NCBI RefSeq assembly: GCF_039541115.1
Contig: NZ_BAABFP010000004.1
Coordinates: forward strand, 236,005 to 300,004
Length of the DNA: 64,000 bases
Source: Angustibacter luteus
GTDB lineage: Bacteria > Actinomycetota > Actinomycetes > Actinomycetales > Angustibacteraceae
Direction: 5' to 3'
In this document: in pieces, positions 10,887-22,620 of the stretch
How the letters are laid out: the number at the start of each line of letters is the position of its first letter
Numbering within the stretch: position 1 is the stretch's first letter
Position numbers and translations under genes: made by a program
Notes under the pieces: model-generated
Database searches by the model: none
Told to the model about the DNA's origin: nothing
The model's input: the letters and a program-made list of their open reading frames with translations, nothing else

Positions 10887-11003
10887 GTGAAGAAGCTGCT
10901 TCTCCTGACGGCTGCCGCTGTCGGCGCGTTCGCCGTGTGGCGCAAGGTCGAGGCCGACAAGGCCGAGCAGAACCTCTGGGCAGAGGCGACCGACTCGGTC
11001 TGA
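10887..11003 (+). CDS. DLW-39 family microprotein
   Basis: This 38-residue protein lies between the two tRNA genes. It starts with GTG at 10887 after CGGAGG (about 10876-10881). It has an N-terminal hydrophobic stretch (LLLLTAAAVGAFAVWR), a charged region rich in Lys, Glu and Asp, and the C-terminal pattern NLWAEATDSV, close to the DLW signature of the family. Such proteins sit between tRNA-Ile and tRNA-Ala in many Actinomycetes; their function is unknown. The combination of position, length and sequence makes this a real gene despite its size. Confidence 0.85.
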   Translation: MKKLLLLTAAAVGAFAVWRKVEADKAEQNLWAEATDSV

Positions 11004-11037
11004 CCCACCCTGCCGGGCCCGCCCGGTGGTGTTACCC

Positions 11038-11110
11038 GGGGCCATGGCGCAATTGGTAGCGCACCTGCTTTGCAAGCAGGGGGTTAGGGGTTCGAGTCCC
11101 CTTGGCTCCA
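11038..11110 (+). tRNA. tRNA-Ala (anticodon TGC)
   Basis: The 73-base gene has the acceptor GGGGCCA/TGGCTCC with one G-T pair and discriminator A. The anticodon loop TTTGCAA is closed by CCTGC/GCAGG and gives anticodon TGC, and the T-arm is GGTTCGAGTCC. The restriction-modification island begins just downstream. Confidence 0.97.
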
Positions 11111-11194
11111 CCCCTCGTGCAAACGATGGTCAACCCATGACTTCTTCAATTTGGTCATCCCCCGTGCTGATTGTGGACCGCGATCGGGATGGTG

Positions 11195-12418
11195 TTAGGC
11201 GTTGGCGGGCACGTCGATCGACCTCGAGTAGATCAGGAAGTTGTCGATATCTTTCTTCCTGATCATGACCTTGCCCTTGCGGGGCTTGCCGTCAGGTTGC
11301 TTGAAGTCCGTCTGGAAGTCCCCGAGGACGATGCCGACGTTGGCCTGATTGACTTCGAGGATCTTCACGCGGACGAATCGCACCGCCTCCTTGAACCTCC
11401 CAGCGTAGGAGAGTGGGTCATAATCGCTGCCTCGCCCGACGTGCCCGACCGACCGGCGCCAATCGTTCCACGCGATCGTCGACATGTTGGCGTTGTCCCG
11501 CCCGTGCCATGTCTCGTGCTCGTAGATGACGTACCAAAAGCGCCCCGTCTCCGTGAGGCAGCGGTAGAAGTCAGCCGCATCGTTGCCGGGTGAGTCGTTG
11601 ACAGCAACATTGGAGGCCTTGAGGTCGCCGTAGTGCTCGAGCATGCCGTGATTGAGAAACCGAAGGTCATAGTCGTACTCGCCCTTGCGTTTCTCCTTCT
11701 GGACCTCGACGTGGTCGCGCAGGTTGTGCTCGGAAAGGAAGCGGCTCAGTCGGAACTCGACGTAGAAGCCCGCCCACTCGTTCTGGAATTTGTCCCGCCA
11801 GTTTGCGGCGTGCATCTCCTGCGCCGCCGCCAGACCCTCGATCCTCGCCCCGTTCAGAAGCACATCGCTAAACCGGTCGAACACTTCGATATGCGGGTTC
11901 CTCTCCTTGTAGCCCGCCTGTATGTACGTCGCGAACTGGTCAGCACGCACGCTGGTGAGCCGGTTGCCGCTCTTGTCCTCGCGCGAGAACTGCCCGACCG
12001 TCTGCGCCTGGTACAGGTCGTTCGACGAAACGTGGGCGGAGGAATTGTTCGCCTTGCGGGTGACGTACGTGTCAGGGTCGAAGTCGACGAGGATCGTGAC
12101 AGGTCCGTAGTGGTAGATCCCGACGAACCGCACGGTCAATCCGTCCTCTTCTGCTCGGCTGTAGACGTCCAGCCAGGTCTTCGGGATCTGGATCCGCTTT
12201 TTGTACGCCGGCCAGGGAACGCCCAGGTAGGTGACCTGCTTGCTCAGGATGATTTGACCCTCGATGGACACGACCCAGACACCGGCGTACTTCTGGAGCG
12301 TCGCGCTAGGTAGCGCCGCGAGCAGGAGCTCGGCTCGACCGCGGCTGGAGAGGGTGGTGTCGACATCCTGAAGCAGGGCGCCACTCGGCCCGATCTGATC
12401 GACAACGACGTTTCCCAC
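11195..12418 (-). CDS. Putative restriction endonuclease, PD-(D/E)XK-like
   Basis: This 407-residue protein is the last gene of the vsr-methyltransferase set and I infer it is the cognate nuclease. The segment GEYDYDLRF followed about 15 residues later by HYGDLKAS (roughly residues 247-272) fits a PD-(D/E)XK core, where D and the DLK lysine would bind metal and activate water. The N-terminal 200 residues lack recognisable motifs and may read the target sequence. I cannot name a restriction family. The start is GTG at 12418; the ribosome-binding site is weak. A 131-bp gap without a gene separates it from the methyltransferase. Base composition is less GC-rich than the neighbours, which suggests acquisition. 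Confidence 0.7.
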   Translation of the reverse strand: MGNVVVDQIGPSGALLQDVDTTLSSRGRAELLLAALPSATLQKYAGVWVVSIEGQIILSKQVTYLGVPWPAYKKRIQIPKTWLDVYSRAEEDGLTVRFVGIYHYGPVTILVDFDPDTYVTRKANNSSAHVSSNDLYQAQTVGQFSREDKSGNRLTSVRADQFATYIQAGYKERNPHIEVFDRFSDVLLNGARIEGLAAAQEMHAANWRDKFQNEWAGFYVEFRLSRFLSEHNLRDHVEVQKEKRKGEYDYDLRFLNHGMLEHYGDLKASNVAVNDSPGNDAADFYRCLTETGRFWYVIYEHETWHGRDNANMSTIAWNDWRRSVGHVGRGSDYDPLSYAGRFKEAVRFVRVKILEVNQANVGIVLGDFQTDFKQPDGKPRKGKVMIRKKDIDNFLIYSRSIDVPANA

Positions 12419-12549
12419 GCCACCATTGGTATCAGCCGGTGTCCCTAGGGTCGAGCGAGCGCAATGCCCTAGCCCATTCGGCGGATGGGGCCCAAAGGGC
12501 GCGTCTTGGCTGGCAGCCTCAGGGCACGGCTGCTCTGGGTGGGAGGGGC

Positions 12550-14040
12550 TTAGCCAACTGCCGCCTCCGGTGCGACAGCCCTGGCCTCGTGAGCTTTCGC
12601 GCCGTCGGCCAACGCATCGCCTGTCGGATTGAGAGGCGATGCGAGGACGGCGCGCACAAGGCGACGGGGCAAGTCGGACGCATCGCGCTCAACGTGTGTG
12701 CGGAAGACATGCCAGGCCGCCCCCACTGCGACACCATTACCTACCTGCTTGTACGACGCGGAATCCCGTTGGCCAGCGAAGGAGAGGCTTCGACTGAAAC
12801 CCTGCAGGCGCGCGGCCTCGTGAGGAGTGAGCCGGCGGCGGCGGCTGCCCATGACCGAGGTTTGCGTAATGGCCACGAGAGCGGGAAGGTACGTGGGCGC
12901 CTTTGCGCGGATCCCAGAGGGGCGGAAGTGCATGACCGTTTCCCAGAGCGAGGCGGTGTCCTGGGCCTGCCACTCGAGCTTGCGACGGGAATCTGGGAAC
13001 GAGGCGAAGGTGGGGTTCGCATGCTTCCATTCGCGGATCACGTCTCGGTGGTCGTCGTAGAAGCGGGCGTTCTTGATCAAGATCTGGGACTTCCACCGGG
13101 GCAGTGCTTCCAACTCGAGCGGATCTAGGCCACGCTCCGGAATCCAAGCGTCGGCCCACAGGGGGAAGCCGGGGAGGCGGACGCCGCGGGCTGTCCACAT
13201 TCTCTGGACAAGGTCATCCCAGACGTTCACCCAAGCAGTCTCGTCAGCCGTGAGCTGGTACTTCTGGATGTTGTCGATATCGACGTCGTCATCCAGGATC
13301 CACTCGGCGTTCCAGTCCGCCGCGTTCCACCCATCGACAGGGCCGCGGACCACGGTCGGCGGAACGTCGACCTCCGCCAGCGCCCGTTGGGGGCCAACGT
13401 AGGTGCCCAGGATGAAGACGCGGTCCCGGACTTGCGGTGTTCCTCCAAGAGAGGGGGGGAGAAAGTGCGGCGAGAACACAGACGGGGTCGACGACACGCG
13501 GTAGCCGATCTCTCGCAACGTCTGGATGATCACGTCCCATTCGTGCGTGTGACGGGGACCCGCGATGTTCCGCACGTTCTCGAGCAGCACAACCGCCGGC
13601 GTTCGGTCCTCGAGTATGCGGGCGATGTTCCAGAAGAGCGTTCCTCGCGCCTCGTCCATACCACGCTGGCGCCCGGACTTCGAGAACGGCTGGCACGGAA
13701 AGCCGGCCGCGAGCACGTCATGGGGCGGAACGTCGACCGGGCCGTCATCGGGAGTCGCCATGGTGATGTCGGTGTTGACGATGGGGCGCCTGGACGCCGG
13801 CAGCGGGTCCACCCAGTTGCGTAAGTAGGTCTGGCGCGCCTCGCGGTCGATCTCCGAGACGTAGACGCAGCGTCCGCCGGCGTGGTCGAGCATGGCGTGG
13901 AAGCCGCCGATGCCTGCGAAGAGATCTGCGTACTTGAACGCTGCAGAGTCCTTCGCCATGCCAGCAAGCTTAGCTGAACCGACAGCTAAGTCAAGCTCCC
14001 GCGCGGACTGATTGAAGTGGAGCGGCAGGGCATCGTTCAT
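12550..14040 (-). CDS. DNA (cytosine-5-)-methyltransferase
   Basis: The enzyme transfers a methyl group from S-adenosylmethionine to C5 of cytosine in a specific site. Motif I (ADLFAGIGGF), motif IV with the catalytic cysteine (GFPCQPFS), motif VI (ENVRN), motif VIII (QVRDRVFILG) and motif X (YKQVGNGVAV) are all present in order. The long stretch between VIII and IX is the target-recognition region. Three starts are possible: ATG 14103 overlapping the vsr stop, ATG 14040 after AGAGGA at a good distance, and ATG 13959 right before motif I. I chose 14040 (496 residues). An inverted repeat lies in the leader between 14040 and 13959. Confidence 0.93.
   Translation of the reverse strand: MNDALPLHFNQSARELDLAVGSAKLAGMAKDSAAFKYADLFAGIGGFHAMLDHAGGRCVYVSEIDREARQTYLRNWVDPLPASRRPIVNTDITMATPDDGPVDVPPHDVLAAGFPCQPFSKSGRQRGMDEARGTLFWNIARILEDRTPAVVLLENVRNIAGPRHTHEWDVIIQTLREIGYRVSSTPSVFSPHFLPPSLGGTPQVRDRVFILGTYVGPQRALAEVDVPPTVVRGPVDGWNAADWNAEWILDDDVDIDNIQKYQLTADETAWVNVWDDLVQRMWTARGVRLPGFPLWADAWIPERGLDPLELEALPRWKSQILIKNARFYDDHRDVIREWKHANPTFASFPDSRRKLEWQAQDTASLWETVMHFRPSGIRAKAPTYLPALVAITQTSVMGSRRRRLTPHEAARLQGFSRSLSFAGQRDSASYKQVGNGVAVGAAWHVFRTHVERDASDLPRRLVRAVLASPLNPTGDALADGAKAHEARAVAPEAAVG
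13969..13990. promoter_or_regulatory. Inverted repeat near the methyltransferase start, possible operator
   Basis: CTTAGCTG-AACCGA-CAGCTAAG has perfect eight-base arms around six bases. On the minus strand it sits 10-31 bases before the alternative start at 13959, where an autoregulatory operator would be expected. If translation starts at 14040 it lies inside the coding sequence. Confidence 0.45.
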
Positions 14041-14102
14041 GGGGCAGGTTCCTCTGGTCGTGCGCATCCCACAGGGTCGACCCGATGCGCCAACGCGAAG
14101 CA

Positions 14103-14582
14103 TCACCTCGCAAGAGGTACTCCATCAAGAGGGTCCGACAGGCCGCCAAAGGCCGGGTCTGGGTCGGGCCTCCGCGGACTCAAGACCCTGTCGGCTACGG
14201 CGCCCGGGTCCCGACGTACCTGGCACTCCCAAACCCTCAAGACGTGCCATCCGTGATGTTGTGCCAGTTGCGTGGACCGCCTGTCGCGTTCCGCGTTCCG
14301 CTCCATCTTTTGGGCCCAAAGCGCCGCGTTAGGTCCGGTCCATGGCGTCTTACGGCCGTGTTCGGGGCACCCGTGCCAGAAGCATCCGTCCACGAATACG
14401 GCGACGCGGCGCGACGGCAGGACAAAGTCAGGGGTGCAGCCCTTCGCGATCTGTCGGTGAAGTCTGAACCGCCCGCCGGCTGCATGCACCGCCTGGCGCA
14501 GCAAGACCTCAGGAGCCGTGTTGACCTTGCGACGCCCAGCGAGGTGCGCGCCTGCCTCAGTGCTGACCCACCGCTCTGCCAC
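14103..14582 (-). CDS. vsr: Very short patch repair endonuclease Vsr
   Basis: Vsr nicks DNA next to T:G mismatches that arise when 5-methylcytosine deaminates, so it usually accompanies a C5 methyltransferase. The 159-residue protein carries the family core VAVFVDGCFWHGCPEHG near residues 60-76, with the conserved aspartate and zinc-binding Cys/His residues, followed by NAERDRR and a WHVLRVWE strand. The start is GTG 14582. It is the first gene of the set on the minus strand; its TGA overlaps a possible methyltransferase ATG at 14103, which would couple the two. The methyltransferase adjacency supports the call. Confidence 0.92.
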   Translation of the reverse strand: MAERWVSTEAGAHLAGRRKVNTAPEVLLRQAVHAAGGRFRLHRQIAKGCTPDFVLPSRRVAVFVDGCFWHGCPEHGRKTPWTGPNAALWAQKMERNAERDRRSTQLAQHHGWHVLRVWECQVRRDPGAVADRVLSPRRPDPDPAFGGLSDPLDGVPLAR

Positions 14583-14729
14583 CGTGCCAACTTACGTCGG
14601 TCGCACTCAGATTCGTACTTCGAGAGGGAAGCAGCCGCACTCCCTGAGTCCACGGCGCTTGACGCGATGAGGCGCTGGCGACCTACACGAGGGCGAGGCC
14701 CACGGGCCAGCGCTCGCTGAGGCAACACG

Positions 14730-15209
14730 CTAGAGGTCTACCTGGACCCGGCGGTCGATGCCGGTGCCGTGAACAGGGTCGCTGCCGCGCACGTGCACGT
14801 CGTGCTGCACCACCCGCAGGCGGTACAGCCGAAGCTCGGCCGCGCCGGACAGCTCCTCGGGCGTGAACGGCTTCGCGGCGCCGCTGAGTTTCGCGAAGGC
14901 CCGCGCACAGGCAGACTCGAGCTCGTCGTCCGGCACCTGAGCGGCCGTCCCCGTCAGGTACACCGCACTGCCCTGGCCGACCTCCGCAGTGCTGTCGAAC
15001 ACCACCGCCGCGACGTCCGGACGAGCCGCGACGTTGTGCGAGTGGGCCGAGCCGGGCGACGAGACCCAGTAGACGTCGCGATAGCCGTCGTGCGTGAAGT
15101 ACACCGGCGAGACACGTGGCTGACCGTCGTCCTCGGTCGTCCCCAACGTCAGGTACTGGTTGGTGTCCAGCACCTGACGCGCCTCCTCCGCTAGGTCGTC
15201 CGTGCTCAT
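14730..15209 (-). CDS. Pyridoxamine 5'-phosphate oxidase family protein
   Basis: This 159-residue protein has the split-barrel flavin-binding fold: LDTNQYLTLGTTEDDGQPRV and SPVYFTHDGYRDVYWVSSPG are typical of F420/FMN-dependent members used as small oxidoreductases or haem-binding proteins. Substrate and cofactor cannot be told from sequence. I chose ATG 15209 (MSTDDLAEEARQ); a GTG at 15224 would add five residues. It is the first gene after the restriction-modification island, and base composition is back to the chromosomal pattern. Confidence 0.8.
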   Translation of the reverse strand: MSTDDLAEEARQVLDTNQYLTLGTTEDDGQPRVSPVYFTHDGYRDVYWVSSPGSAHSHNVAARPDVAAVVFDSTAEVGQGSAVYLTGTAAQVPDDELESACARAFAKLSGAAKPFTPEELSGAAELRLYRLRVVQHDVHVRGSDPVHGTGIDRRVQVDL

Positions 15210-15318
15210 GGGTCCACTGTCCACAGTCGAGGTGTGGAAGCGCTCACCCAGGACGGGTGAAGCGGCTGTCTCACCTCCGCCTCCAAGATCGCGTCAGGGC
15301 CACGGGTCGGGAGACGTC

Positions 15319-15687
15319 ATGATCACAGTCATCGAGCGGATGCCAGTCGGCACGATCGGTCTGAAGGCCAGCGGCAAGGTCACCGAGGACGACTACCGCG
15401 ACGTCCTCGTGCCGGCGGTCACGCTCGCCCGCCAGCAGGGCAAGGTCCGGCTGCTCTACGTGCTCAAGGACGGCTTCGACTCGTTCTCCGCCGGCGCGAT
15501 GTGGGCCGACGCCAAGGTCTGGGCGAAGAACATGGACGGCTTCGAGCGGATCGCCCTGGTCGCCGACGCCGACTGGCTCGAGCACGCAGCCAAGGCCGTG
15601 AACCTGGTGGTGTCGGGCGAGATCAAGGTCTTCGAGTCCGACGACGTGCGCGACGCCAAGATCTGGCTCGTCGGCATCGACGACTGA
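15319..15687 (+). CDS. SpoIIAA-like (STAS/SEC14-type) protein
   Basis: This 122-residue protein matches the SpoIIAA-like family, a STAS-like alpha/beta fold thought to bind lipids or partner proteins. It opens with ITVIERMPVGTIGLKASGKVT, then DDYRDVLVPAV, the strand RLLYVLKDGFDSF, and WLEHAAKAVNLVVSGEIKVF. It lacks the phospho-accepting serine motif of true anti-anti-sigma factors. ATG 15319 follows GGGAG by six bases. The lipoprotein gene begins 14 bases after its stop, so the two probably form one transcript. Confidence 0.75.
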   Translation: MITVIERMPVGTIGLKASGKVTEDDYRDVLVPAVTLARQQGKVRLLYVLKDGFDSFSAGAMWADAKVWAKNMDGFERIALVADADWLEHAAKAVNLVVSGEIKVFESDDVRDAKIWLVGIDD

Positions 15688-15701
15688 GGGATACCAACGC
15701 C

Positions 15702-16622
15702 ATGGCCCGTCACGAGCTCCGCATCCGACTGAACCGCTCCACGCTCGCCATGGCTGCGGTCGCCGCGGTGGCGGGAACAGCGCTGCTGGCATCCTGCAGC
15801 ACGGATGACGGTGCGCGCCCCGGCCTCAGCCCCACCCGCTCCGTGTCAGCCAGCATCACCGCCACCGTTCCGACACCGACGGTCACGCTGCCGACGCGCA
15901 CCACGACGGCCGAGCCCTCTAGCTCAACGACGTCCAGCACGGAGCCCACCAGCGAGCCCACCAGCGAGACCACGACAACCACGTCCGAACCCGAGACCTC
16001 GACCTCCACGACGACGACCACCAGCACGACGTCCACGACAACTACCACGACGACGGAACCAGAGACGCCCAGCGAGACCACCACCACGACCACGGTCACC
16101 GAGACACCCACCGAGTCGGCTACGTCGAGCCCGACCACCTCCAACCCGGACGCCGCCCCGATCGCGGAGGACTCGCTACCCGTCGGAGTGTGGTGGCTGA
16201 TCGCGGCCTTGCTGCTCGCGGCGCTGGCTATCGGCATCCCGCTGCTGATCCGGAGTCGCCGTCGCGCCGACTGGCTGGCTGAGCTGGACACCGCTGAGGC
16301 TGAGGCGATCTGGTTCGCTCGAGCGCTGATCCCGGAGCTCAAGGCCGCGGGCAGCCATGAGCGCGCGGCCGGAGCCTGGGGCGTCTCGTCGGCCAGGGTC
16401 GTCGCCACCGAGGACGCGCTGACCGGTCTGGAAGCCTCCGCACCGGACGACGAGTCCCGCATTCGAGCCACGACGTTGCGCGACGCCGTCCGCAGTGGGC
16501 GCGGGCAGGTCGAGCAGCTGGTCCGGGTGGGCGCCGACGCGACCCTCGGGTTCGGGCTGGAGGACGTCGCCGTCGAGCTCGAACGGGTCTTGCCGCCGGC
16601 GCCACCGCCCGGATCCCCGTAG
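15702..16622 (+). CDS. Thr/Ser-rich lipoprotein with an internal transmembrane helix
   Basis: The 306-residue protein has a basic N-terminus, a hydrophobic core and a lipobox with LASC, which places the lipidated cysteine at residue 32. Residues 45-150 are almost only Thr, Ser, Pro and Glu, like a cell-wall-spanning stalk. A strong transmembrane helix follows at about 161-183 (WWLIAALLLAALAIGIPLLI), ending in Arg-rich RSRRR, then 118 helical, probably cytoplasmic residues. If both signals work, the protein is anchored at both ends of the stalk. The ATG at 15702 lies 14 bases after the SpoIIAA-like gene. I do not recognise the C-terminal domain. Confidence 0.72.
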   Translation: MARHELRIRLNRSTLAMAAVAAVAGTALLASCSTDDGARPGLSPTRSVSASITATVPTPTVTLPTRTTTAEPSSSTTSSTEPTSEPTSETTTTTSEPETSTSTTTTTSTTSTTTTTTTEPETPSETTTTTTVTETPTESATSSPTTSNPDAAPIAEDSLPVGVWWLIAALLLAALAIGIPLLIRSRRRADWLAELDTAEAEAIWFARALIPELKAAGSHERAAGAWGVSSARVVATEDALTGLEASAPDDESRIRATTLRDAVRSGRGQVEQLVRVGADATLGFGLEDVAVELERVLPPAPPPGSP

Positions 16623-16638
16623 GCCGACCTACTCGGCC
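16622..16638 (+). terminator. Small hairpin after the lipoprotein gene
   Basis: GGCCGA-CCTAC-TCGGCC begins at the last base of the stop codon. The six-pair stem may end transcription of the SpoIIAA-like/lipoprotein pair. The remaining 175 bases up to the next start probably hold the promoter of the caspase cassette, but I see no clear -35/-10 pair. Confidence 0.4.
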
Positions 16639-16813
16639 GAGCAGACCCCAAGTGGCCAGGTTTGCGCTCCGTTAGGGATATGTCCGATCCCCGGCGCGAC
16701 GTCCCGACGCACGAGTACGCTGAGTGACGAAATCGCGATCACCCCCGGGCGTTCCGTCTGCTGTGTATCTGGCGTGCCCGTTCGGTGCTCCGATTCAGCG
16801 ACAGGGGGTCGCC

Positions 16814-17269
16814 ATGACCGAAGCCACTTCGCCGCCCGCCGGCGGTGACGCCGACGTCCTGCTCCTGCACGTCCGGCCCGACACGCTGGAATGGGGAACC
16901 GAGGACGACGACCGCTGGCGGTCCGACCTCGCCGAGCTGCAGCACCTGTTGCGTCGCGAGCTGCGCGACGAGACGCAGGAGCCGCCGCCCGCCGCAGGCA
17001 ACCGGGGCGCCGCGGAGATCAGCGACGTCATCGTCGCCCTGGGCAGTGCGGGAGCGATGACGGCGGCGGTCGAGGTCTTCAAGAGCTGGATCAACGCCCG
17101 ACCGGGCCGGCGCCAGGTCACGGTCACCATCGAGGGTGCCGGCGTCGAGCAGCGCTCCGTCTGCGTCCAGGCCGACGGGCTCGGCGCGGCCGAGCTGCGC
17201 GACCTTGCCGCCCAGGCGCTAGGTAGCGGTCCGGGGACACCCCCGGCAGGCGAGGCAGAGGCGCGGTGA
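16814..17269 (+). CDS. Effector-associated constant component 1 (EACC1)-like protein
   Basis: This 151-residue protein has an acidic, variable first third. Its conserved second half reads SDVIVALGSAGAMTAAVEVF, then SWINARPGRRQVTVTIEG and a C-terminal helix AAELRDLAAQAL. The pattern of a hydrophobic glycine-rich helix followed by a basic turn and beta strands matches my recollection of the EACC1 domain, an adaptor described in bacterial conflict systems next to caspase, trypsin-like and other effector domains. It begins at ATG 16814 and the caspase gene starts four bases after its stop, so they are very probably translated together. The family name is from memory, not a search. Confidence 0.68.
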   Translation: MTEATSPPAGGDADVLLLHVRPDTLEWGTEDDDRWRSDLAELQHLLRRELRDETQEPPPAAGNRGAAEISDVIVALGSAGAMTAAVEVFKSWINARPGRRQVTVTIEGAGVEQRSVCVQADGLGAAELRDLAAQALGSGPGTPPAGEAEAR

Positions 17270-17273
17270 GGAC

Positions 17274-19229
17274 GTGGGCTTCCGGGCACTGCTGATCGGG
17301 AACTGGAAGTACGCGCACCCCGACGGAGGCATGGCAGAGCTCAGCGGCCCGCGCCACGACATCCAGGCCCTCCGGTCCGCCCTCGTCCACCCCACGTTCG
17401 GGCTGTTCAAGACCGAGGACGTCGTGGTCAAGGAGAACCTCACGGCCGACGGCCTGTCCGACGCCCTCGCGCTGGCCGCGGACCAGAGCACGCCGGACGA
17501 CGTCCTGCTCATCTACTACTCCGGGCACGGCGAGCGCCTCGGCGCCGAGCAGCAGCTGGGACTTCTCGGCGTCGACGTCCCGTACGAGCGGCGGATGAAC
17601 CGCGCCCTGCACACCCGGCTGCTCCGCGACTGGCTCGACGGCGCCCGCGCCAAGTCGACCATCCTCGTCCTGGACTGCTGCTACGCCGGTCAGTACCGCG
17701 CCGACGAGCTCGTGGACGACGACCTGCTGGCGACGTTCGGCCGGGGCACCGTCGTGCTCTCCAGCGGTGGCAACCAGGTCGTCCCCGACGAGGGCGAGGC
17801 CGACGGTCCGAGCGCGTTCACCGCAGCGCTCGCCAAGGTGCTGGTCGACGAGAACCTGGTGGGTACCAACGGAGTTCTGACGGCCGAGGACGTGTACGCC
17901 GCCCTGGACCGCTTCGAGCCGCGGCTCAAGCCGCGGCCGCACCGCAACCTCGCGGCCGAGGGACGGATCGGCCTGGCGATGCGGCCGCGACCGGAGCCCT
18001 CGGCCAGCCCGATGGTCCTGCGTGGGTGGCCGAAGAACCTGCGAGTGATCGACGTCGGCATCACCTTCGCCGGTGAGCTCGTGGTCGCGACGTGGGACCG
18101 CGACGGCAACGGCCGGATCACCAACGACGAACGTGATGTCACGGCCCTGGACCCCACCCGGCTCGCTGCCATCCGTCGGCTCTGCCAGCTGGCGGACGCG
18201 GTGATGCGCGCCAAGGACTACAGCGACCCGCCGTGGCAGAAGCGGGCTCGTCGCGCGCTGGAAACCGCTGGTGCCAACCTGTTCCAGGCCGCCCTGCCCA
18301 CCCCGATCCAGAACCTGCTGCACCAGGCCGAGGACGAGGCCGACGTGGTCGTCCAGCTGAACCTCACGTTCGAGCCGCCGTGGACGAGCCTCGCGGAGTA
18401 CCCCTGGGAGTTCATGCACGTGCCGTCCGACCAGGGTGTCGACCCCACCGGTCTGGCGCAGCGCAAGCTGGTCGTGACCCGCGCTGGTCGATCGACCGAC
18501 CGGCCGGGCCGGGACTCCGATATCGCGGACGTCGCGGTGGTGAGCAGCGTCGTGCACCCGTACACGCGGCTGTCCAGCCGCCTCGGTGCCGAGCTGGTGG
18601 CGATGCCGTCCGTTCGAACGCTCACGACCGCGGACGACGGCAGGCCGGCGGACTGGGCGGACCTGATGGACGCGGTCGACCAGAAGCCGGAGTACCTCGT
18701 GATCTGCGCTCCGCTGCTGCGCTCGACGCGCGATGGCATCCCTTCTGCCAAGCTCGGTTTCCGCGGCGCTCGCGAGACCGACTGGCGCACAGCGGAATCG
18801 CTGGCCGACGAGCTGCGCAGCGCAGGTGGGCTCAGTGCCGTCGTGGTGGCGTCCGTCGCGGCCGAGACCGGACTCGACGCGATCCGCGCCGCGCCCAGTG
18901 CCGCCGCCGCACTCAACGCCGAGCTGGGCGTCCCAGTCGTGTTCATCTGCCACACGCCAGGCCTCGAGGGTTACGTCGATGACGCCGATCCGGAGGAACC
19001 GAAGACGTTCGTCGGTCTGCTGCTCGCGGCCCTCACGAGCGGTCACGACCCGGTCCGCAGCATGTGGTTCGCCCGGGACCGAGTGCTGCGCTACATCCCG
19101 TCCCACCTGCAGCCGACGTTCGGCGTCCCTGGGGTGTTCTACGGCGCAGGGCAGCGTCGCCGTGCCGGCGGTGCCGGTGAGCGGCAGCCCGGTCGGCTGG
19201 GCAACCGGTCCAGTCCAGGGAAGGGCTGA
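17274..19229 (+). CDS. Caspase-family protease with EF-hand loop and CHAT-like second half
   Basis: This 651-residue protein opens with an intact peptidase C14 (caspase-like) domain: GFRALLIGNWKY at the N-terminus, the catalytic histidine in IYYSGHGER (His85) and the catalytic cysteine in LVLDCCYAG (Cys136). Around residues 275-286 the stretch DRDGNGRITNDE is a complete EF-hand calcium-binding loop (D1, D3, N5, I8, E12). From about residue 355 a second alpha/beta region resembles the CHAT fold: AEYPWEFM (376-380), RKLVVTRAG, YLVICAPLL and VVFICHTPG. The usual HG of an active CHAT site is absent, so this half is probably non-catalytic. It sits between the EACC1-like and solenoid genes and likely acts as the effector protease of that cassette. 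Confidence 0.85.
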   Translation: MGFRALLIGNWKYAHPDGGMAELSGPRHDIQALRSALVHPTFGLFKTEDVVVKENLTADGLSDALALAADQSTPDDVLLIYYSGHGERLGAEQQLGLLGVDVPYERRMNRALHTRLLRDWLDGARAKSTILVLDCCYAGQYRADELVDDDLLATFGRGTVVLSSGGNQVVPDEGEADGPSAFTAALAKVLVDENLVGTNGVLTAEDVYAALDRFEPRLKPRPHRNLAAEGRIGLAMRPRPEPSASPMVLRGWPKNLRVIDVGITFAGELVVATWDRDGNGRITNDERDVTALDPTRLAAIRRLCQLADAVMRAKDYSDPPWQKRARRALETAGANLFQAALPTPIQNLLHQAEDEADVVVQLNLTFEPPWTSLAEYPWEFMHVPSDQGVDPTGLAQRKLVVTRAGRSTDRPGRDSDIADVAVVSSVVHPYTRLSSRLGAELVAMPSVRTLTTADDGRPADWADLMDAVDQKPEYLVICAPLLRSTRDGIPSAKLGFRGARETDWRTAESLADELRSAGGLSAVVVASVAAETGLDAIRAAPSAAAALNAELGVPVVFICHTPGLEGYVDDADPEEPKTFVGLLLAALTSGHDPVRSMWFARDRVLRYIPSHLQPTFGVPGVFYGAGQRRRAGGAGERQPGRLGNRSSPGKG

Positions 19230-19234
19230 CGACC

Positions 19235-21679
19235 GTGACCACGTGGGATGCGGGAGTCCGCGAGGCGAGGATGCGCCTCGCCCGCGCCCTGATCGGGCCG
19301 GGGGCCACGGACCGGGCGATCCGTGAGGCCGAGAAGCAGGCATTGCGAACCCTCGACTCGATCGAGGCGGACGGGCGTGCCGGGCGGGACGTCGAGGGTC
19401 CCGCGAAGTGGGAGGTCCTGGAGGAGCTGGCCGGGATCGCTCGCCTTCGCGGCCAGGCTCAACCGGAGATGGAGCGGCTGGTCGAGGCCGTCATCGCCGC
19501 ACCGCCCGACCCGGCGGCGCGGCTGGCGGACCAGATCGTGCAGCTCCTCGAGAGCTCCGGTGATGGGAGCCTGGTCGAGGGGCTGCCGAACGAGGTCGCG
19601 TCCCGACTCTGGGAGGCCGCCCACGACGACGAACGTCCGGACGCCGTCGTCCAGCTGGCCGCCCGGCTCGCCCTCGCGCGCGGGCACGTCACCGCAGCGA
19701 GCGAGGTGAGCCGCCAGCGCGACTCCGTCGCCTCCGCTGGCGCTGAGCTGCACGCCGTCAGCGTGGTCGCCGCGGTCCTCGACCTCCTCGCCGAGGGCGA
19801 CACCGGAGCGGCCGAGGCGCGGTTGGCCGAGGTCGGCCACCTCGACCGTGAGCCGTCCGTGGTGCTGGCCGACGCGCTGCTGCGGTACGCCCGGGGCGAT
19901 CTCGAGGGTGCCCGCCGCCTGGCTGAGGACTGGTCCGGCGCGGGCGACGTGGGGACGGTCGCGGTGATCGCGCTGCTCCGGCAGGCGGTGGACGAGGCGG
20001 ACGCCGCGGGGATCTTCAAGGCGGCGCGCAGTGCCGCGACCCGTACGGTCCGGCACGACCCGTCGTCCGGGGAACCGGTGCTGCTGCGGGCCCAGGTGCT
20101 GCTCGAGGCCGGGGTGGAGCTCGAGCTCGGGCGCGAGCTGCTGGCCACCGCCGTGACCCGGCTCGGCTCGCCGTACGCGCTGCCGTGGTGGCGGGTCCAG
20201 GACCGGGCCCGTGACGACCACCGGTACACCTACTTCCGCGTCGAGGTCGCCGCGGCGCTCGAGAACCCCGGCGAGATCCCCGGCCTGGCCGCGTCCTTCG
20301 AGGCGACCAGCCTCACGACGTACGCGCAGGACGCGAGGTTGCGCGAGCTCTGGGGCGGCGCCGCGGACGACCCGGACGAGGCTTTGAGCCTGCTCCGCGC
20401 CGCGGCGTCCGACTACCGGAACGCCGACGACATGCCCGCAGCGGTGCGGTGCCTGCGCGCCGTCCGAGACCGCGATCCCGACGCCAGGTCGGGCTTGGAG
20501 CTGGTGGATGCGCTGTGGGCCGCCTCGTTCGCCACGACGCCGGAGGTCGGCGACAAGCTCGTAGCCGAGGGGCTCGCACTGATGGGTGCGCTGGAGGGGC
20601 AGCACGGACCGGACGCGATCGGTCGGGCGAGCCTGGTGTGGGGGCTGTTGCTGGCGCGGGCGGACGCGATGGCTGCCGCTGATCACCCGGTCCGGACCAG
20701 CCAACGGTGGCGACCGCTGCCGCACCTGCTGCTGGCGGCGCTGCTCGACACCGAGGCTTCGTACACCTGGGCGCACCTGGCCTGGGCGTGCGTGGATGCT
20801 GATCTTCAGTGGCCGGCCGCGTGGTCCGGTCGGCGGGCGCTCGACCTGCGTCCGGGCGACAACTGGCTGATCGAGACGCGCGTGGTGTCCGAGACGAACT
20901 GGTGCGGCGTCCTCGACGACGACCTGCGGGACTGGTTGCAGCAGGTGCCGTCGGACGTCGCCGCCCCAGGCTGGGTGGCCACGGTGCAGGCGTACGACCT
21001 GCTGGTCCGCGAGCTGGCGCCCGACGCTGCGGACCTGGTGCCGCAGATGGACTTCGACGCCTGGTGGGCCCGCGAGATCCGGGTGCAGTCCCTCGCGCTC
21101 GGCCAGTCCCTGTCGGCGGCCGTCCGCGACCTGCGCGACCTGGTCCAGGAGGCCGAGAGGCGCGGTCAGCTGGTCGACGCGGCCTGGTACTGCCTGCTCG
21201 ACGACCCCGAGCGAGGGCGAGTACTGGCCGAGGAGGTGGACGCCGGGGGCGAGCGAAGCCCCAGCGCGGAGCTCCGGCTGGCGGCCATCCAGATCATGAC
21301 GTCCGCTGGGACGGCGGGCGCCGACCGGTACGCGGCGACCCTGCGGCGAAGCCGCCGACCCTCGCGGCTCGTCCAGGAGAGCACGATCGCGCTGCCGCTG
21401 CTCACCCTGGCCCAGCAGGACGACGAGCCGTTGTCGGTGTTGCGATCGCTCACCGACCTGGCGCGCTCACTGGCTGACGACGTCGAGCGGGCTCCTGCCC
21501 TGACGGTCGAGCTGGAGTCGCAGGAGGCCTGGTGCGACGACAGCGAGCTGGCCGCTCTCGTGCGTCGCCTGCTCGACGTCGCGGACTCCGGGTCACCGGA
21601 CGACGGCGCGCCGCCCGACCTCCCCTGGCTGCCGGGTGCGGCGACGGTCGCCGCCGCCTGGCAGGCCCTGAAGCCGTAG
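19235..21679 (+). CDS. Large helical solenoid protein of the caspase cassette
   Basis: This 814-residue soluble protein is almost entirely predicted alpha-helix, rich in Ala, Leu, Arg, Glu and Asp, with many TPR-like helix pairs, for example near residues 180-230 (AEARLAEVG and ADALLRYARGDLEGARRL). There is no signal peptide, membrane segment, P-loop or protease motif. It starts at GTG 19235, five bases after the caspase stop, with GGGAAGGG just upstream. In comparable gene sets such solenoids serve as scaffolds, sensors or protease substrates; which applies here is unknown. Conserved tryptophan clusters (residues 520-570) may mark a binding face. Confidence 0.72.
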   Translation: MTTWDAGVREARMRLARALIGPGATDRAIREAEKQALRTLDSIEADGRAGRDVEGPAKWEVLEELAGIARLRGQAQPEMERLVEAVIAAPPDPAARLADQIVQLLESSGDGSLVEGLPNEVASRLWEAAHDDERPDAVVQLAARLALARGHVTAASEVSRQRDSVASAGAELHAVSVVAAVLDLLAEGDTGAAEARLAEVGHLDREPSVVLADALLRYARGDLEGARRLAEDWSGAGDVGTVAVIALLRQAVDEADAAGIFKAARSAATRTVRHDPSSGEPVLLRAQVLLEAGVELELGRELLATAVTRLGSPYALPWWRVQDRARDDHRYTYFRVEVAAALENPGEIPGLAASFEATSLTTYAQDARLRELWGGAADDPDEALSLLRAAASDYRNADDMPAAVRCLRAVRDRDPDARSGLELVDALWAASFATTPEVGDKLVAEGLALMGALEGQHGPDAIGRASLVWGLLLARADAMAAADHPVRTSQRWRPLPHLLLAALLDTEASYTWAHLAWACVDADLQWPAAWSGRRALDLRPGDNWLIETRVVSETNWCGVLDDDLRDWLQQVPSDVAAPGWVATVQAYDLLVRELAPDAADLVPQMDFDAWWAREIRVQSLALGQSLSAAVRDLRDLVQEAERRGQLVDAAWYCLLDDPERGRVLAEEVDAGGERSPSAELRLAAIQIMTSAGTAGADRYAATLRRSRRPSRLVQESTIALPLLTLAQQDDEPLSVLRSLTDLARSLADDVERAPALTVELESQEAWCDDSELAALVRRLLDVADSGSPDDGAPPDLPWLPGAATVAAAWQALKP

Positions 21680-21701
21680 CAGCCGGTCCCCCACCACCCC
21701 T

Positions 21702-21772
21702 TTCCGCCACTCAGGCCGGTTTCCGCCGACCGAAAGCGGTCTGAGTGGCGGAAACCGGCCTGGGTGGCGGAA
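21702..21772. terminator. Long nested hairpin between convergent genes
   Basis: Arms 21702-21727 and 21747-21772 pair over 26 positions with one mismatch. The 19-base loop holds a second hairpin, GACCG-AAAG-CGGTC (21728-21741). It lies between two converging genes, so a two-way terminator is likely. Confidence 0.65.
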
Positions 21773-21789
21773 GCGGGTGGGGCAGGGGG

Positions 21790-22620
21790 TCAGTCGAGGG
21801 GGTCGGTGAGCGGGTCCTTCTTCGAGGACGCCTTGCCGTTGGCCTCGGCGGCGTCCGTGATGGCCTCCTCCGCCGCCGCGCTGTCCGCGGTCAGACCGGG
21901 GACCTCGGCGTCGTCCTCGCCCGCACCGTCGAGCGCCGCCTCGGCGGCACCGGAGTCCAGCGAGTCACCGGCGGACGTGGCGGACGTGGCGGACGTGGCG
22001 GCCGGCGTCGACCAGCTGTTCGCCCCCGGGTAGGTGCCCTCGGGAATGGCCCACGGGTCCTCGGCCGGGCCACGGCTCTGCAGCACCGCCCGCGCCGCTG
22101 CGGCGCCCGCCGCGATGGCGGCGAAGAACAGGAACACCTTCTTCTTGCTGCGCTTCTTCTTCGCGACTTTCTCGCCCTTGGCGACGGCCACGGCGTCCGC
22201 ACCGCGGCTCTTGGCGGTGTCCGCGACGTCCGATGCCTTGTCGGACGCCTTCGCGGCGCCGGCCGCACCCGCGGCGGCAGCTGCAGCGGCGGCCGCGTTC
22301 ACGGCCTCCACGAGCCGGGGCAGCAGGTCGTCCACGATCTTGTCGCGGGCGGCCTCAGCAGCCGGCGGCACGCGGTCGACCGCGGCCTCGACCTTCGGTG
22401 CGGCCGCCTCGACGGCCGCCGAGGCCTTCGGTGCCGCCCAGTCCCGCGCGTCCCGGGCCTTCGCGGCGGCAGCCGGAGCCACCGTCTCGCGCAGGGCGTG
22501 GCTGGCGCTCGCCACGGCGTCCTGCACCTGGGACTTGGCGTCCTTGGCCTTGTCGGCCGCAGAGTCCTTGACCGAGCTCGCCTGGTCCTTGGCCTTGTCG
22601 GTGCGGCTCTTCGTGAACAC
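21790..22620 (-). CDS. Ala/Lys-rich single-pass membrane protein
   Basis: The 276-residue product has no recognised function. The first half is made of amphipathic, Ala/Lys/Asp-rich helices (TDKAKDQASSVKDSAADKAK) resembling LEA or apolipoprotein-like repeats. A Lys/Arg-rich patch (KKKRSKKK) precedes one transmembrane helix near residues 155-175. The tail is acidic with TSATSATSA repeats. I chose GTG 22620 because GGGAGGG lies just upstream, although spacing is short. It diverges from the cyclophilin gene across a perfect palindrome. Similar proteins are common in Actinomycetes but uncharacterised. Confidence 0.65.
   Translation of the reverse strand: MFTKSRTDKAKDQASSVKDSAADKAKDAKSQVQDAVASASHALRETVAPAAAAKARDARDWAAPKASAAVEAAAPKVEAAVDRVPPAAEAARDKIVDDLLPRLVEAVNAAAAAAAAAGAAGAAKASDKASDVADTAKSRGADAVAVAKGEKVAKKKRSKKKVFLFFAAIAAGAAAARAVLQSRGPAEDPWAIPEGTYPGANSWSTPAATSATSATSAGDSLDSGAAEAALDGAGEDDAEVPGLTADSAAAEEAITDAAEANGKASSKKDPLTDPLD

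Follow-up and report, generated by a model that had tools for sequence, protein, structure and literature searches.

A likely AluI-like restriction-modification-Vsr island in Angustibacter luteus, with AGCT sites in the predicted promoter of its methyltransferase

How does a newly arrived restriction-modification (R-M) system make its protective enzyme first and then keep it low? This central question of R-M biology is raised by a locus in Angustibacter luteus (assembly GCF_039541115.1, contig NZ_BAABFP010000004.1), within the 64,000-nucleotide stretch of DNA that was analysed as a whole and is called the window here. Beyond tRNA-Ala three genes follow on the minus strand: vsr (14582-14103), encoding the Vsr-type mismatch endonuclease V of 159 amino acids (aa), M (13959-12550), encoding a C5-cytosine methyltransferase (MTase) of 469 aa, and R (12418-11195), encoding a restriction endonuclease (REase) of 407 aa. 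A preliminary description of this DNA, made from the letters alone, had noted these three genes, and family matches bear out the R-M-Vsr identity that it gave them. M matches PF00145 (218 bits), with the PCQPF (here PCQPFS) and ENV motifs present and an RRKLEWQAQD...QTS block conserved; V scores above the cut-offs of TIGR00632 (105.8 bits, cut-off 97.85) and PF03852 (62.3 bits, cut-off 27); and R matches the PADLOC model PDLC03409, REase_II (530 bits, residues 1-401). We consider it likely that this is an AluI-like, that is AGCT-directed, type II R-M-Vsr system, horizontally gained, whose MTase methylates and thereby turns down its own promoter.

Upstream of position 13959, a predicted -35 box, TTGACT (13989-13994, minus strand), is followed after a spacer of 16 nucleotides (nt) by a predicted -10 box, TAAGCT (13967-13972, minus strand), and 7 nt later by the ATG of M, which is thus predicted to have its own promoter, giving a leaderless mRNA. 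The frame of M is open up to its first start codon at 14106, and the start is most likely 13959 rather than 14106, because the -35/-10 pair lies directly upstream and the starts of relatives are equally distant from the first MTase motif. Four copies of AGCT fall within 31 nt over this promoter (13967-13997, with copies at 13967, 13972, 13984 and 13994), one of them inside the -10 box. Outside the window, 400 kb of this genome contain one other place with such a density, four AGCT per 31 nt, and 400 kb of a sister genome (G001, the sole other genome of the genus compared, with a gyrA identity of 87%) contain none.

Is this cluster a peculiarity of one promoter or a feature of the MTase family? 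Within the order, 45 of the 396 genomes encode M-type MTases (E <=1e-60), and the 30 best loci of these 45 genomes were taken further, weaker members lying outside the counts. AGCT was present within 150 nt ahead of M at every one of the first 12 loci inspected, the window included. Words were then counted over 110 nt ahead of the first motif, with expectations taken from each locus's own background, in 42 non-redundant actinobacterial loci; these derive from 53 by removal of L063 and L076 (no M start), five duplicates (at least 92%) and four distant non-actinobacterial loci, and they include L056, whose broken M frame keeps it out of the 57-protein alignment and tree used below. AGCT occurs 102 times upstream of M in this set, versus 11.9 expected, and 39 of the 42 loci bear it (10.1 expected). 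It ranks first of 136 four-base words; the words ranked after it overlap TAAGCTTA, and CATG represents the start codon. Further upstream, at -300 to -190 of the same loci, the count was 13 with 13.9 expected. A further 16 loci, obtained from a family search that yielded 21 of which five duplicates were dropped, gave 46 AGCT versus 4.2 expected, with 15 of the 16 bearing the word. All 58 loci together thus hold 148 AGCT (about 16 expected) in 54 loci, an enrichment of about ninefold. Furthermore, TAAGCT stands 5-9 nt before a start codon in 40 of the 58, versus a mean of 0.18 in 300 shuffles.

The enrichment is specific to this MTase subfamily and to the MTase gene. Ahead of 18 C5-MTase frames from the same order that lie outside the family, AGCT was found twice, versus 5.7 expected; these controls, some of which are alike (e.g. 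L124 and L125), come from 50 loci with 36 MTase frames recognised by motif, the remaining 18 belonging to the family. Ahead of R, counted at 18 actinobacterial loci with the window included and with L038, L044 and the distant R loci L073-L077 left out, there were five AGCT versus 5.8 expected. In addition, 72 of the 102 sites in the 42-locus set lie outside the predicted -10, at varying positions, and no position in their flanks carries more than 0.28 bit. Flanks so nearly devoid of information therefore imply a reader of 4 bp.

A closer view of the promoter was obtained by aligning loci at their start codons. Among 28 loci with an M identity of at least 64%, the 20 in which a start codon lies 10-13 codons ahead of the first motif were aligned; L081, L083, L084, L090, L181, L182, L184 and L185 were left out for want of one, and among these L090 has no AGCT and L181 has TAAGTT. 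Picked by M identity and start distance only, all 20 aligned loci have TAAGCT at -13 to -8, while a second AGCT stands at -16 in 16 and a third at -28 in 11; in the other 54 columns the commonest base averages 0.61. As the MTases are homologous and TANNNT is the normal shape of a -10 box, a common promoter could simply have been inherited, in which case TAAGCT would be an ancestral -10, the rest drift, and no regulation would be involved. We regard this as highly improbable, given that the inner -10 bases, which are normally free, are fixed as AGC in the 20 loci where other columns average 0.61, that 72 of the 102 sites vary in position outside the predicted -10, and that the enrichment is of the order of ninefold.

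We note that the loci, being homologous, are not strictly independent. What carries the argument is that the sites have been kept amid changed spacers and that the further sites vary in number and place. In the tree of the 57 M proteins, whose root serves for drawing only, the AGCT signature is found on either side of the deepest drawn split, the -10 site has undergone at least 8-9 changes, and the loci without AGCT are scattered tips. A regular array, AGCT-N8-AGCTAAGCT, is seen in 12 of the 58 loci, all but one of which belong to the clade of the window, and could be read as a dimer operator; AGCT would then be the binding site of another regulator, encoded by the host or linked to the system, and not the target of M. 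That seems to us quite unlikely, as elsewhere the number and spacing of AGCT vary freely with almost no information in the flanks, few regulators read only 4 bp, and the neighbouring genes differ between loci (no dedicated regulator search was made).

What, then, would read AGCT? It is a bare 4-bp palindrome that accompanies one MTase subfamily and is enriched neither before other MTases nor before R, and for this reason the simplest candidate reader is the MTase itself. A single AGCT target common to the M subfamily is accordingly a likely, though not proven, reading of these sequences. One block within the region that separates motifs VIII and IX shows a conservation of 0.81-0.87 in the 57 M proteins.

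AGCT is the site of the AluI R-M system, in which M.AluI makes AG5mCT (5mC, 5-methylcytosine). The system described here would share with AluI a C5-MTase directed at AGCT, and differs from it in that Vsr adjoins M. All seven M proteins scanned match the PADLOC model MTase_II PDLC03220 (416-563 bits), whose length of 525 equals that of M.AluI; this is a lead. The best PADLOC match of M itself, when the three island proteins were scanned, is DruM2/DruM PDLC00034 (840 bits), which links it, alone of the three, to the Druantia-type MTases; here, however, the partners of M are a classical REase and Vsr, and the label speaks for the kind of MTase and nothing more. According to the accessible text of a survey of m5C specificities, m5C at AGCT occurs in another actinobacterium, Arthrobacter sp. 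NEB688 (M.AscII), and was detected there at 2.1% of all sites and at 5.2% of those that are cleavable (PMC8112702); no promoter is described in that portion of the paper.

An MTase can also act on its promoter as a protein. M might repress transcription by binding AGCT, with no need for methylation, in the manner of MTases with fused repressor domains; the distribution of sites would be identical, and repression by the MTase protein is known for Ecl18kI, SsoII and EcoRII, as far as the accessible part of a recent review goes (PMC12707154). We think this unlikely, however, because only 11 residues precede the first motif of M when it starts at 13959, the Pfam scan of M finds the methylase domain only, and a C5-MTase should, on general grounds, leave its site once this is methylated.

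Instead, we propose negative feedback through methylation, because the AGCT pattern is accompanied by precedents: CfrBI, AhdI and LlaDII are the three systems listed in the accessible text of the same review as having an MTase promoter methylated by its own MTase (PMC12707154). R would cut unmethylated AGCT, M would protect this site by making 5mC, and Vsr would repair the T:G mismatches that arise by deamination of M's 5mC. M would be transcribed from its own leaderless promoter, with TAAGCT as -10 and three further AGCT. On entry into a naive cell this promoter would be unmethylated, and M would be made first; as M accumulates, the AGCT in its own -10 and the flanking sites would become methylated, which would weaken the binding or opening by RNA polymerase and bring M to a maintenance level. 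R, with a separate putative promoter that shows no AGCT enrichment, would be unaffected, and in AhdI and LlaDII, too, only M is affected, according to the available text (PMC12707154). The sign cannot be read from the sequence by itself, and methylation of the -10 might instead activate M in a bistable positive loop, yet we consider this very unlikely: promoter methylation in CfrBI lowers MTase transcription, as the accessible text has it (PMC12707154), and an incoming system requires M at a stage when none of its DNA is methylated yet.

Feedback repression through promoter methylation nevertheless has to be set against a number of observations that weigh on the other side. AGCT is not depleted from the genome (observed/expected ratio 1.17 for the host and 1.14 for the sister genome, each over 400 kb); the absence of avoidance fits a recent gain, yet lends no support for the specificity. 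The likeness to AluI is a prediction from the promoter sites and a conserved block of M. Outside the conserved block, the remaining region between motifs VIII and IX (176-315) is conserved at just 0.46-0.65 in the 57 M proteins. Because the true starts of the control MTases are uncertain, the 110 nt taken for them may include some coding sequence. At the four distant loci, from Clostridia and other groups, the five words shown with the strongest enrichment do not include AGCT, and the promoter feature seems, from these sequences, to be limited to the actinobacterial branch. Finally, in 18 of the 58 loci no TAAGCT precedes a start codon by 5-9 nt, and four (L072, L090, L097 and L189) have no AGCT in the 110 nt. 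L072 has TAGGCT and a frameshifted R, and L097 has TAAGTT at its -10, as does L181, which retains two other AGCT sites.

The TAAGTT of L097 and L181, which lie on separate branches of the M tree, corresponds to the deamination product of methylated TAAGCT. Loss of control may come about in this way, with the enzyme's own product, TAAG5mCT, being mutagenic.

The nuclease had been described as not assignable to any known restriction family and as possibly having a new specificity. The first of these statements does not stand, since R matches REase_II, as given above, and also Pfam MTaX1 (PF20296, 81 bits), and the second is unlikely, the evidence pointing to AGCT, which type II systems are already known to recognise. 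Relatives of R were found at 22 loci in a collection of 84,980 genomes, 17 of them actinobacterial and five distant (Clostridia, Clostridiaceae, Roseburia, Paceibacterota and Bacteroidetes; identity 29-32%). Where both genes were found, R lies within about 2.3 kb of M; at L063 no M was found. An alignment of 24 sequences from across phyla has invariant positions that include E221, D249, D251 and G264-D265-L266-K267, and we infer a catalytic role for residues among E221, D251 and D265-x-K267 in a putative C-terminal PD-(D/E)XK-like domain that follows the N-terminal MTaX1 domain.

Residues 172-400 of an AlphaFold model of R built from the 24-sequence alignment (mean predicted local distance difference test score, pLDDT, 88.0) align best to SwaI (Z 8.5) and HincII (Z 8.3), which like the further matches MvaI and EcoRV are type II REases; a Z near 8 can reflect a common arrangement, and the best Foldseek E for the model is 5e-3. 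An earlier model from 10 sequences was set aside for its pLDDT of 65.7. SwaI, HincII and EcoRV are blunt cutters, as is AluI. Residues 23-172 of the model align to Hjc resolvases (Z 8.3), no conserved (D/E)xK is seen there in the 24-sequence alignment, and we take this part to be a putative DNA-binding relic. Sequence searches of solved structures returned only weak, unrelated matches with the single protein and none with the 24-row profile, and a search of BFVD gave nothing at E <=1e-3. For the MTaX1 domain, a potential involvement in discriminating modified DNA is mentioned in the accessible text of one study (PMC10853773). With regard to transcription of R, TGGTA lies about 16 nt ahead of the R start in nine of the 17 relatives listed, which suggests a leaderless extended -10 promoter; by extension from these relatives, TACCAA (12426-12431, minus strand), 7 nt ahead of the GTG, is the putative -10 of R in the window.

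Was the system gained recently, as had been proposed on the basis of its base composition and position? The comparison with G001 agrees with this. The alignment between the window and the sister genome breaks off at 11111, the end of tRNA-Ala (TGC anticodon; 11038-11112, plus strand, called by ARAGORN), and restarts at 21848; the segment in between (11112-21847) is not common to the two. At that place G001 carries some 10 kb of different sequence, and R is absent from this genome. A DNA search of G001 with window positions 14583-21900 found only 25 pieces of about 30-100 bases each (DNA level only). The island as previously drawn ended at 14729; the non-shared segment reaches 21847. The lower GC content noted before was also borne out: it is 0.640 over 11195-14582, compared with an average of 0.718 in 400 kb of the same genome, where 11 of 680 overlapping segments of the same length are as low, and 11001-12000 is the lowest of the window's 64 one-kb bins. 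Counting the own genome both times, R occurs in 10 of the 396 genomes from the order and in 5 of the 394 from the class.

Knoellia aerolata shares 90% identity in M, 81% in Vsr and 70% in R, and gyrA identity to the two f17 genomes G019 and G035 is 75-76%, Knoellia's own gyrA lying outside this comparison; the divergence pattern of the three proteins relative to gyrA fits a transfer between families. The same genes at the same place in relatives, named beforehand as a finding that would speak against recent gain, are approached by one locus alone. In a Tetrasphaera metagenome-assembled genome (L060), R and M stand in the same orientation downstream of gyrA-DUF3566-tRNA-Ile-tRNA-Ala, there 3.4 kb from tRNA-Ala. 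Because the sister genome is empty, we read this place beside tRNA-Ala as probably a shared hotspot and not as vertical inheritance. As to a vehicle, the 3' end of tRNA-Ala has no exact copy of at least 12 nt elsewhere in the window (an integrase scan of the remaining segment was not made), tblastn with R found no match among 72,556 records of plasmids and 50,697 of phages, and scanning IMG/VR by pattern yielded no confirmed relative of R.

If the promoter belongs to the MTase, does it travel with different effectors? Across the 58 M loci, an R relative was found in 20 and Vsr in 29 (mostly within 1.5 kb of flank), and 20 wider neighbourhoods of M loci without R nearby revealed other partners. 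A second REase type adjoins M in L192, L204, L208, L210 and L211. The C-terminal catalytic region is common to this type and R (hhalign probability 98.5% over 176 columns), and no Pfam match (L192, L204, L208 and L211 scanned) or PADLOC match (L192, L208 and L211 scanned) was obtained. The E...FDYxL...WDLKAH core is as in R, and the N-terminal half is different. HNH_2 nucleases stand beside M in L196 and L205; such HNH partners accompany two of the four AGCT-less loci, L090 (at L196) and L097 (at L205). In L198 a Z1, GmrSD_N and DUF4420 module lies beside M (by Pfam, with PADLOC on two proteins), the Z1 protein having MzaC as its best PADLOC match. Clustering by blastp grouped L199 and L201 with this module. 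That these neighbours work together with M is inferred from position, and the MTase may be common to quite different defence systems.

We lean towards the view, with somewhat less assurance than for the reading of the island itself, that this actinobacterial MTase subfamily carries a portable thermostat, in which the enzyme's own 4-bp target in the -10 and its flanks would set expression independently of the effector, be it one of two REase types, an HNH nuclease or a Z1/GmrSD module. As described in the accessible text of the review, CfrBI, AhdI and LlaDII are single systems, and making REase transcription dependent on a working MTase is 'apparently rarely used' (PMC12707154). The arrangement proposed here differs in being family-wide, with one to five AGCT in 54 of 58 loci and varied partners, and in mostly having one AGCT inside a predicted leaderless -10. 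Promoter-methylation control is known from few systems, and its family-wide form looks new; we found no report of an AluI or AGCT MTase promoter bearing its own site, in a literature search that left subscription papers mostly outside and is hence no proof. These observations suggest that methylation of the own promoter is the usual means of control in this widespread subfamily of actinobacterial MTases, and that the promoter sequence alone could yield the target site of uncharacterised MTases.

A third group of neighbours of M, detected by blastp, comprises proteins of about 330 aa at L193 and L207 and of 364 aa at L202; the L193 neighbour, the sole one of the group scanned, had no Pfam or PADLOC match, and the group is possibly another REase. 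Within the variable segment of the window, an EACC1 protein (PF19953) is followed by a caspase-domain protein (PF00656) at 16724-19229 on the plus strand, and the two are predicted to form a conflict/effector pair. The host genome also holds a second C5-MTase by PF00145, a frame of 319 aa at G000:C8:604678-605583.

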